From Gemmobacter lanyuensis (GTDB taxonomy: Bacteria; Pseudomonadota; Alphaproteobacteria; Rhodobacterales; Rhodobacteraceae), in assembly GCF_014652355.1 (NCBI RefSeq), contig NZ_BMYQ01000006.1, forward strand, positions 62,001 through 126,000: a DNA stretch of 64,000 nucleotides, given 5' to 3'. Numbering within the stretch: the first letter of the stretch is position 1; each line of letters begins with the position of its first letter. Of this stretch, positions 51,167 to 62,362 are shown piece by piece. Position numbers and translations under genes: made by a program. The notes under the pieces are model-generated. The model was given only the letters and a program-made list of their open reading frames with translations, was not told the DNA's origin and searched no databases.

Positions 51167-52339
51167 TCAGTCGGTCCGATCCTGCGAGAAGGCGTAGATC
51201 GCGCAGCCCACCACCAGCACCAGCCCGAAGAAGAGAAAGAGCGCCGCATAGGGGGCCTCGGGCGGGGTGGCGGGGATGGCGGCGTGGATCTTGCCGGTCA
51301 GGACCTGCGCAATCCCGACCGAGCCGATACCGAATAGATTGAGCATCGACACCCCGCGCCCCACCAGATGTGGGGGGAAGAACGCGCGCCCATGCGCCGT
51401 GACCTGCGGGAATGAGGCGCCGAAAAACCCGATGGCCGCGAAGATGGCGATGGTCTGCCAGCCGCCCATAGCGGGAAAGGCCCAGAGCAGCAGGCAGGAC
51501 AGGCCGCAGAGCAGATTGCCCGTGAAGTTCAGCCATTTCCGCGTGCCCAGCACCCGGTCGAGCGGGCCATAGGCGAAACTGCCCAGCACCATGGCCAGCC
51601 CCATGACCAGCGTGACCCGGCCGATCTCGGCCGTGGTGGCGCCATAGACATCGGCATAGTACGGCCCGACCCAGAGCCCGCGCAGCGCCGCAGGCGGCAT
51701 GTAGGTGGCCAGCATCATCGCCAGGATCGGCCAGACCGCGCGGATGCGCAGCACATCGAGCATGGACCCCCGCGGGCCGCCTTCGACCTTGGCAGGGTCG
51801 CGGACCAGAAGGCCGATCAGCGCGGCAATCAGCAGCGTGACGCCCGCCATGCCCACCATGGTTTCGCGCCAGCCCAGCGTTTCGACCGCCCAGGCCAGCG
51901 GGGCAGACCCTGCGATATTGCCCAGGTTGCCGATGCCGATCGTCATCCCCGCCAATGAGGCAAAGACCGCGGGCGGGAATTGGCGGGCGAAGATGTAGTA
52001 GCTCGACATCAAGACCGGCGCACAGCCGATGCCGATCAGCGCCATGGCAAGGCTGATCGCGGCGGGTGAGGTTGCGGTCGCAAAGGCCAGCGCCCCGCCG
52101 GCCCCGCCAAGCGCGAACAGCGTGACCGCCGTGCGGCGCGGCCCGATCCGATCCAGCGCCCAGCCCACCGGCAGCTGCATGGCCGCGAAGGTCAGGAACC
52201 ATAGACCCGAGGCGAAGGCGAGCGTTTCGGCGGTGGCGCCCAGCTCGGCCTTCAGGACAGGGGTCAGCACCGCGAGGAACCCGCGGTAGAACTGGCTCAG
52301 CACATAGGCCAGGACGAGGCTGGCAATTCCGGCTTTCAT
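51167..52339 (-). CDS. MFS transporter (first of a pair)
   Basis: A 390-aa integral-membrane transporter with about 12 hydrophobic helices. The first loop has GWALDRIGPRR (57-67), the MFS G-x-x-x-D-R-x-G-R-[RK] signature between helices 2 and 3. The overall wording is like major facilitators of unknown anion or drug specificity. It lies 6 bp downstream of a second MFS gene, so they form one mRNA. The two proteins are only distantly alike, so this is not a recent tandem copy. The substrate cannot be inferred. Confidence 0.88.
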   Translation of the reverse strand: MKAGIASLVLAYVLSQFYRGFLAVLTPVLKAELGATAETLAFASGLWFLTFAAMQLPVGWALDRIGPRRTAVTLFALGGAGGALAFATATSPAAISLAMALIGIGCAPVLMSSYYIFARQFPPAVFASLAGMTIGIGNLGNIAGSAPLAWAVETLGWRETMVGMAGVTLLIAALIGLLVRDPAKVEGGPRGSMLDVLRIRAVWPILAMMLATYMPPAALRGLWVGPYYADVYGATTAEIGRVTLVMGLAMVLGSFAYGPLDRVLGTRKWLNFTGNLLCGLSCLLLWAFPAMGGWQTIAIFAAIGFFGASFPQVTAHGRAFFPPHLVGRGVSMLNLFGIGSVGIAQVLTGKIHAAIPATPPEAPYAALFLFFGLVLVVGCAIYAFSQDRTD

Positions 52340-62012: not shown

Positions 62013-62143
62013 GGCGGCAGGTTACCCGGTTTTGCGCGGCAGGGAAGGGGGGCTTTGCGAATTGTCGTCCGGATCGGTCGTTTATAAAGCTGCCATATTT
62101 TAAGCGCAGGCCAGAAAGATTTTAACGCAGATACATCAAAGAG

Positions 62144-62172
62144 AAAGGGCCGCCGGAGAGCGGCGACCCTTT
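62144..62172 (-). terminator. Terminator of the small-ORF unit
   Basis: AAAGGGCCGCCG/CGGCGACCCTTT stem with a single mismatch and a 5-nt loop. On the minus strand it is followed by CTCTTTG, 24 bp past the second small ORF. Confidence 0.72.
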
Positions 62173-62195
62173 CCGAGTTCCAGGAGATGGGCCAG

Positions 62196-62273
62196 TTAGG
62201 TTCCAAGCCCAATCTTTGGATTGATTTTCAAGGGGTTGCCCTTAAATTTCGCACCTACAGACTGTCCCGACAC
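62196..62273 (-). CDS. Candidate 25-aa small protein (small ORF 2)
   Basis: GTG start at 62273 preceded by GGAGAG, then a Lys/Gly-rich peptide (KFKGNPLKINPKIGLGT end) to a TAA at 62196-62198. I recognise no family. It overlaps small ORF 1 by 32 nt in another frame, and its SD lies inside small ORF 1, a layout that would couple its translation to the leader ORF. A Rho-independent terminator follows 24 bp on. Evidence for coding: SD, codon pattern free of stops, and an ordered layout with terminator. Evidence against: short length, unproved conservation. Confidence 0.35.
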   Translation of the reverse strand: MSGQSVGAKFKGNPLKINPKIGLGT

Positions 62274-62298
62274 CTCTCTCCAATATCACTCTAGACAC
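62242..62298 (-). CDS. Candidate 18-aa leader peptide with extended Shine-Dalgarno (small ORF 1)
   Basis: GTG start at 62298 follows GAAAGGAGGTGATCCA (62299-62314), complementary over about 15-16 nt to the 3' end of 16S rRNA (GGATCACCTCCTTTC). The peptide reads MSRVILERGVGTVCRCEI and stops at TAA (62242-62244). The sequence has no family that I know. SDs of this length are rare. They favour slow release or standby binding of ribosomes and are often found in regulatory leaders. It is not a true 16S remnant, because sequences outside the 16 nt do not match. Confidence 0.35.
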   Translation of the reverse strand: MSRVILERGVGTVCRCEI

Positions 62299-62356
62299 TG
62301 GATCACCTCCTTTCAAAAGTTGCCGATAATTAGGAGGGTGACACAGATTTCGTGTT

Positions 62357-62362
62357 TGTCAA
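62357..62362 (-). promoter_or_regulatory. Possible -35 element of the small-ORF unit
   Basis: TTGACA on the minus strand, 7 bp past the transporter stop. A TAATTA box lies 24 bp further (62327-62332), too far for a standard sigma-70 spacer, so the promoter is uncertain and read-through from the transporter is possible. Confidence 0.25.

Follow-up and report, generated by a model that had tools for sequence, protein, structure and literature searches.

The analyzed window is a 64,000-nt stretch of the Gemmobacter lanyuensis genome (assembly GCF_014652355.1, contig NZ_BMYQ01000006.1, positions 62,001-126,000, forward strand), and all coordinates given here refer to it. A short element is encoded on its minus strand, flanked upstream by a gene for a queuosine precursor transporter of the yhhQ-like type (TIGR00697, 95.5 bits, cut-off 50.95) and downstream by arfB (NF006718, 182.6 bits, cut-off 100). 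It comprises the following features, with counts referring to 116 distinct homologous elements:

62339..62362, minus strand: strongly conserved promoter-like box TTGACAAACACGAAATCTGTGTCA, defined from the consensus of the 116 elements; no second copy in the genome with up to 3 mismatches allowed
62298..62314, minus strand: extended Shine-Dalgarno (SD) sequence GAAAGGAGGTGATCCAG, matching the 16S tail by complementarity over 17 nt; the start codon begins with its final G
62242..62298, minus strand: ORF1 MSRVILERGVGTVCRCEI, GTG start, 18 codons plus TAA; 18 codons long in 112 of 116 elements
62196..62273, minus strand: ORF2, 25 codons plus stop; unconserved, with this length in 17 of 116 elements
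62142..62174, minus strand: predicted intrinsic terminator with a 14-pair stem, which the consensus fold of 114 elements retains

The core of this arrangement had been proposed from the letters of the window without any comparison (hereafter the sequence-only reading), and both the GTG-started 18-codon frame behind the SD (62298-62242, minus strand) and a terminator-like hairpin downstream of the ORFs (62174-62142) were borne out. The upstream box consists of TTGACAAACACAAAATCTGTGNCA followed by TATCGGCAAC, contains an imperfect inverted repeat and lies shortly 3' of the yhhQ stop codon; perhaps it is a regulator site. Its reading as a standard sigma-70 promoter is doubtful, a TTGACA being present with no convincing -10 at the right distance.

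The SD is the most conspicuous part of the element. On the minus strand, GAAAGGAGGTGATCCA occupies 62314-62299 and is followed by the GTG of ORF1. Since this string complements the 16S 3' end, a plus-strand 16S rRNA gene, or a piece of one, was suspected first; it was ruled out by an Rfam scan of the whole window, which returned one tRNA and no rRNA. A tRNA-Gly (gcc) of 93 nt at 51734-51826 on the minus strand was called by ARAGORN and is absent from the Rfam list at the Rfam cut-off. The extended complementarity of about 16 nt put forward by the sequence-only reading is real and was measured as 17 nt, the predicted match being to a tail taken from one genome of the same genus (G003), the only one of 11 genomes searched in which the tail GGCTGGATCACCTCCTTTC was found, with the assembly of the window itself among the ten lacking it. 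Counting G-U pairs, the SD pairs with all 17 tail positions in 107 of the 116 distinct elements, and by Watson-Crick pairs alone in 71; four rows score 0 in this count, their register or first base deviating. In the 4.03-Mb genome of the window, two places carry the 12-mer AAGGAGGTGATC and none its reversed control, the surroundings of the second place being unlike those of the window element. This rarity, together with the conservation of the element across the family, places the SD match above chance.

The spread of the element was assessed with a sequence-only model built from its first 75 nt (5' part) at a threshold of E 0.01. Matches were found in 359 of 394 genomes of the family, singly in all of them except two genomes with two matches each, so that the conservation check suggested by the sequence-only reading found an element reaching well beyond close relatives. 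When 61 genomes were searched at the DNA level, matches were strong within the genus and clear in many members of the family, while an exact pattern recovered 36 of 385 class genomes, its reversed control yielding 0 in every row. At least 120 stretches emerged from a scan of named genomes; most of the 80 examined belong to Rhodobacterales, Rhizobiales, and other alphaproteobacteria. Among the matches listed were Brevundimonas, Sphingomonas, and Azospirillum as well as a few Acidobacteria, Phycisphaerales, Gemmatimonadota, and Nitrosomonadales, these few with ORFs of a different kind. For closer inspection, 60 regions were hand-picked from the best-scoring places of the 5' model, and weak matches are consequently under-represented. 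The 116 distinct elements remain from 123 loci after removal of repeats and of L030, which has an 18-codon ORF too when read by eye.

Folding of the window RNA gave -48.5 kcal/mol, compared with -39.45 (sd 3.91) for shuffles, of which 3 of 200 were as good. Among six minimum-energy folds inspected, helix P1 is present in all, and the start-codon hairpin P2 in five (not in L102). The helices predicted from the window fold and the consensus pairing are located as follows:

62304..62311, minus strand: 5' strand of P1, AGGAGGUG, the SD core; P1 paired in 94.1% of cells, its outermost A-U pair in 58 of 106
62182..62189, minus strand: 3' strand of P1, CAUCUCCU, an internal anti-SD pairing with the SD core
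62294..62302, minus strand: 5' strand of P2, the start-codon hairpin; nearly invariant, 97.7% of cells paired
62279..62287, minus strand: 3' strand of P2, GAUAUUGGA, from window fold and consensus pairing
62267..62270, minus strand: 5' strand of P3, UCGG; 98.3% of cells paired, 2 of 4 pairs changed on both sides
62192..62195, minus strand: 3' strand of P3, CUGG within the conserved CCUAACUGGCCCAUCUCC, from consensus pairing (UCGG with CYGR)
62259..62264, minus strand: 5' strand of P4, codons 12-14 in the window and up to codon 16 in relatives
62210..62215, minus strand: 3' strand of P4, AGAUUG, within the 3' UTR
62239..62246, minus strand: 5' strand of P5, covering the stop codon; P5 paired in 80.0% of cells, with two-sided changes in 6 of its 8 pairs
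62227..62234, minus strand: 3' strand of P5, from consensus pairing
62288..62291, minus strand: 5' strand of P6, GAGU, codons 3-4; four pairs only in the window
62175..62178, minus strand: 3' strand of P6, ACUC, immediately 5' of the terminator

In a MAFFT alignment of 107 of the 112 elements with 18 codons (L061 being mis-trimmed at its 3' end), the 35 pairs of P1 to P5 have 89.8% of their cells paired, compared with at most 52.7% for slid partners, and two-sided changes occur in 13 of them. The covariation score was 0.182 against 0.141, reached by 0 of 500 shuffles, with these shuffles and all permutations below treating the sequences as unrelated and thus ignoring kinship. Individual helices were evaluated without alignment in a set of 105 elements, i.e., the 116 minus the four with ORFs of other length, L025, and six without a recognized 3' motif (L059, L098, L105, L120, L130, and L135). 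In this set, the 3' motif ends in CAUCUCC (63), CACCUCC (22), or CGCCUCC (16) in 101 of 105 cases, and all three can pair with GGAGGUG. In the 107-sequence alignment, P1 has no two-sided change because its 5' strand is invariant. In the alignment-free test, P4 stood out with 17.44 against 13.25 (sd 0.28), an unrelated control arm giving 9.30 against 9.30. The outer part of P5 scored 10.59 against 9.65 (sd 0.21), the top of 500 permutations being higher at 10.63. The result for P3 was weak (11.02 against 10.90, sd 0.07), and this helix is absent from the minimum-energy fold of the window itself; P2 was unsupported in the permutation test (7.91 against 8.08). P6, in which codons 3-5 would pair with the bases preceding the terminator, scored 10.87 against 10.35 (sd 0.14) in the window family with 1 of 2000 permutations as high, and matching changes such as GAGU/ACUC, GAAAG/CUUUC, and UCGAGAG/UUCUCGA are seen. 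As its 5' strand sits in the P2 loop, P6 would form a pseudoknot with P2.

Opening of the SD is also predicted to be more costly than in shuffles, with 6.36 against 4.28 kcal/mol when every third of the 112 elements (38) was taken. Taken from comparative prediction, the element thus has a conserved fold new to this study: CAYCUCC, a 3' segment of the same RNA, masks the SD, a hairpin encloses the start codon, and the 3' UTR provides the pairing partner of codons 12-16; the internal anti-SD and the long-range fold are missing from the sequence-only reading. We consider this anatomy, comprising element, frame, and fold, very likely to be correct.

Of the 107 aligned sequences, 106, 107, and 107, respectively, retain the SD letters G, A, and A that lie outside P1, and in 106 the position separating P1 from P2 is occupied by A or G. 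Pairing with the 16S tail calls for these letters, whereas the fold can do without them. This conservation beyond the needs of the fold leads us to conclude that both the ribosome and the 3' strand of the RNA itself appear to impose selection on the SD. Opening of the 17 nt has a modelled cost of 12.6 kcal/mol, and the isolated duplex with the 16S tail was calculated at -31.0.

On this basis, we tentatively propose a mechanism for the element, which as a whole we regard as possible but somewhat less than probable. A stand-alone gene would give rise to a small mRNA of roughly 190 nt. In the free RNA, the ribosome site would be shut, the SD core being held in P1 by a 3' segment that partly copies the 16S tail and the start codon in P2. 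A free 30S subunit could invade through the 17-nt match, displacing P1 and P2, as the SD matches the whole free 16S tail. The ribosome would then read the 18 codons, open P3 and P4, and stop inside P5, with the peptide being largely a by-product and selection acting on the site at which the ribosome is loaded and stopped. The output would most likely be the RNA's own ribosome-loaded state (30S held, RNA lifetime), making the RNA a sensor or buffer of free 30S subunits. Transcription from its own promoter, 30S invasion, and the output are each steps that we infer, and a role tied to ribosome availability is our best guess. Two model results detailed below speak against parts of this scheme: in class-level loci of other types the cost of SD opening does not exceed that of shuffles, and an occupancy model leaves much of the 3' anti-SD strand re-paired. 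The invariant 5' strand of P1, the absence of P3 from the window's minimum-energy fold, and the origin of the 16S tail from a single genome also count against it.

Among the alternatives to such a self-masked mRNA, a trans-acting anti-SD small RNA survives best and is nonetheless unlikely in our estimation. Here, the 3' motif CCUAACYGGCCCAYCUCC would bind target mRNAs at their SDs, the role of the ORF being limited to timing the exposure of the motif. The motif is among the best-kept parts of the element, its unpaired CUAAC included, and a precedent exists in the same class: according to the available part of the report (PMC12559287), the Caulobacter small RNAs SisA-D act via a 10-mer with an anti-SD signature. 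The window element resembles them by description, in that an anti-SD-like motif resides in an alphaproteobacterial small RNA; in SisA-D, however, the motif is described in that part as pairing with target mRNAs (PMC12559287), whereas the one studied here is predicted to pair with its own SD. This internal pairing already accounts for the conserved CAYCUCC. Furthermore, when the 5' end was masked as by a 30S subunit in an occupancy model, much of the 3' anti-SD strand re-paired and was not freed, leaving an anti-SD seed exposed by translation unsupported.

The coding content of the element was also examined. Four of the 116 distinct elements have an ORF1 of other length (31, 23, 25, and 22 codons), and in three (L008, L077, and L138) the stop at codon 19 is absent, with the frame extending to 31, 25, and 22 codons. 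Among the 112 elements with 18 codons, the stop is TGA in 51, TAG in 38, and TAA in 23. The comparison of synonymous and non-synonymous changes proposed by the sequence-only reading speaks against a functional peptide, as pN/pS amounts to 0.87 overall. By region, it is 0.79 in codons 2-8 and 0.47 in codons 9-13 and reaches 1.13 in codons 14-18, where ORF1 varies most. Stalling at the CRC codons, also considered earlier, is unsupported, these codons (14-16) falling within that most variable stretch. Judged by these substitution patterns, frame and stop of ORF1 are kept and the peptide hardly so, suggesting little purifying selection on it. Of the traits of a dual-function small RNA, the element thus shows a retained reading frame with a weakly constrained peptide.

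That the 18 residues are themselves active is therefore quite improbable, even though a (M)SRxxLExGVGT core recurs in the family and the pN/pS of codons 9-13 lies below that of the other two frames (0.68 and 1.10). Against this stand the overall value and that of codons 14-18, the double use of codons 10-13 as strands of P3 and P4, and the finding that in other orders the peptides behind the same SD are unrelated, mostly 14-26 residues long (VSHCH.., MSSE.., KRCHLAGIAR). The two overlapping ORFs of the sequence-only reading are both present in the window as described. ORF2 was nevertheless rejected as a genuine gene: a start codon is retained at its position in 97 of the 116 distinct elements because its GTG falls within conserved sequence, and its length ranges from 7 to 70 codons among these 97. 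From this pattern, ORF2 is most simply seen as a by-product.

By tblastn, 92 of the 116 elements have yhhQ upstream as well as arfB downstream, 18 only yhhQ, and 6 only arfB. Six genomes whose element does not adjoin arfB were checked for this gene, which lies on another contig in four of them and 16 and 58 kb off in two; both genes are missing from the stretch examined at 72 of the 75 class-level loci of other types. Since it is kept where arfB or yhhQ is not adjacent, the element is probably an independent gene, judging from this gene order. A cis-acting role, either as attenuator leader of arfB, which was favored first from synteny (98 of 116 elements have it immediately downstream in the same orientation), or as 3' element of yhhQ (upstream in 110 of 116), is the least probable alternative and was dropped as the main reading, because the element persists in 18 cases without a nearby arfB, the fixed downstream gene of a leader-peptide attenuator thus being lacking there, and in 6 without a nearby yhhQ, arfB lies elsewhere in the six genomes checked, the class-level loci mostly lack both genes, and a terminator separates the element from arfB. 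Of the stand-alone regulatory mRNA envisaged by the sequence-only reading, the conserved short mRNA-like element with extended SD and terminator, kept without either neighbor, holds; a pair of overlapping conserved ORFs and the stalling at CRC codons are unsupported. One class-level locus (L191, Hyphomonadaceae, MSSEKPGT..) has an arfB-like gene on the opposite strand, some 600 bases upstream, perhaps a trace of old linkage.

The earlier view that no named family was known was not borne out. The Rfam model RF01867 (CC2171) aligns over its full length to the window element with 32.4 bits and an E of 2.8e-5 in a search of 401 bases. As this score lies below the gathering cut-off of 75 bits, we do not file the element as a CC2171 member; on sequence comparison, it is a putative distant relative, forming a Rhodobacteraceae branch. 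The cut-off is passed by 8 of 16 named loci outside the Rhodobacterales; at a threshold of E 0.001, the model finds matches in 61 of 289 class genomes, nine of them over the cut-off, and among 14 control genomes Caulobacter vibrioides alone matches. The window element and CC2171 share the 5' block CAAC..GAAAGGAGGUGAUCCARUGUC with the extended SD and RUG-UCU, aligned letter by letter and also common to the class-level loci, followed by a very short ORF and a terminator. A further likeness is the helix between early codons and pre-terminator bases, represented in CC2171-type RNAs by UCAUUGUC/GACAAUGG and variants. It scored 16.07 against 14.81 in the CC2171-like group (37 loci, 0 of 1000 permutations as high), and was not significant in the KRCHLA group (137 of 1000, 5 loci) and in the remaining 23 loci (955 of 1000).

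In contrast, the window branch has other peptides and another inner fold, and the masking of the SD by CAYCUCC has support only in the Rhodobacteraceae branch. In the 75 class-level loci of other types, a set also containing some Rhodobacteraceae elements whose ORF length deviates (e.g., L157 and L198) and a few unrelated loci, SD opening took 5.36 against 5.11 kcal/mol and was not above shuffles; masking by a copy of the 16S tail is thus unsupported class-wide by these energies. Among these other types, best-stem scores were high only in the Bradyrhizobium-type KRCHLA RNAs (19.12 against 14.73, 8 loci) and weaker in the CC2171-like (16.21 against 14.74, 33 loci) and MSSE/D types (15.06 against 14.22, 16 loci); in the window family, every second of the 112 elements (56) was included in this test.

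The wider family is accordingly already catalogued as a Caulobacter small RNA, for which we found no function in the openly licensed literature. There, we likewise found no description of the Rhodobacteraceae branch, its ORF, the 17-nt SD, or the masking fold, and five peptide strings remained without a match. In the accessible portions of the respective articles, RF01867 is reported to have gained one covarying pair (PMC11701678) and is annotated for the predicted Mesorhizobium huakuii small RNA MH_s33 (PMC5596092), and two earlier Caulobacter ncRNA predictions, given there without names, are described as translated (PMC4117421). A short ORF on an alphaproteobacterial small RNA is also known from Sinorhizobium rnTrpL/peTrpL (14 codons); as far as the available text goes, that ORF is leaderless and part of an attenuator (PMC10117765), whereas the ORF of the window element has a 17-nt SD and no fixed downstream gene. 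Mapping of the Rhodobacter UdsC/RSP_7527, as presented in the accessible text of PMC9779115 and PMC8625941, to the window element was unsuccessful.

If the self-masked mRNA opened by free 30S subunits holds true, a contest between the 16S tail of the ribosome and a partner within the RNA would explain an element matched in 359 of the 394 sampled family genomes and with relatives in other alphaproteobacterial orders. The RNA would then serve as a natural gauge of free 30S subunits, whose amount is difficult to measure yet central to the control of growth, and the ORF would seem to be conserved as a track for the ribosome, not for its peptide. A catalogued, unexplained small RNA (CC2171) would thereby become testable. 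The broadest extension, which we consider doubtful at present, is that many alphaproteobacteria possess a dedicated RNA sensor of free 30S, with a start region designed to pair alternatively with the full 16S tail or within the RNA and a near-meaningless peptide, the internal partner imitating the 16S tail in the Rhodobacteraceae.

The extended SD is not limited to RNAs of the window type, since the same sequence also precedes ORFs of 56-59 codons in other alphaproteobacteria (L032, L045, L183, and L213). The starts of these ORFs are hydrophobic and signal-peptide-like.
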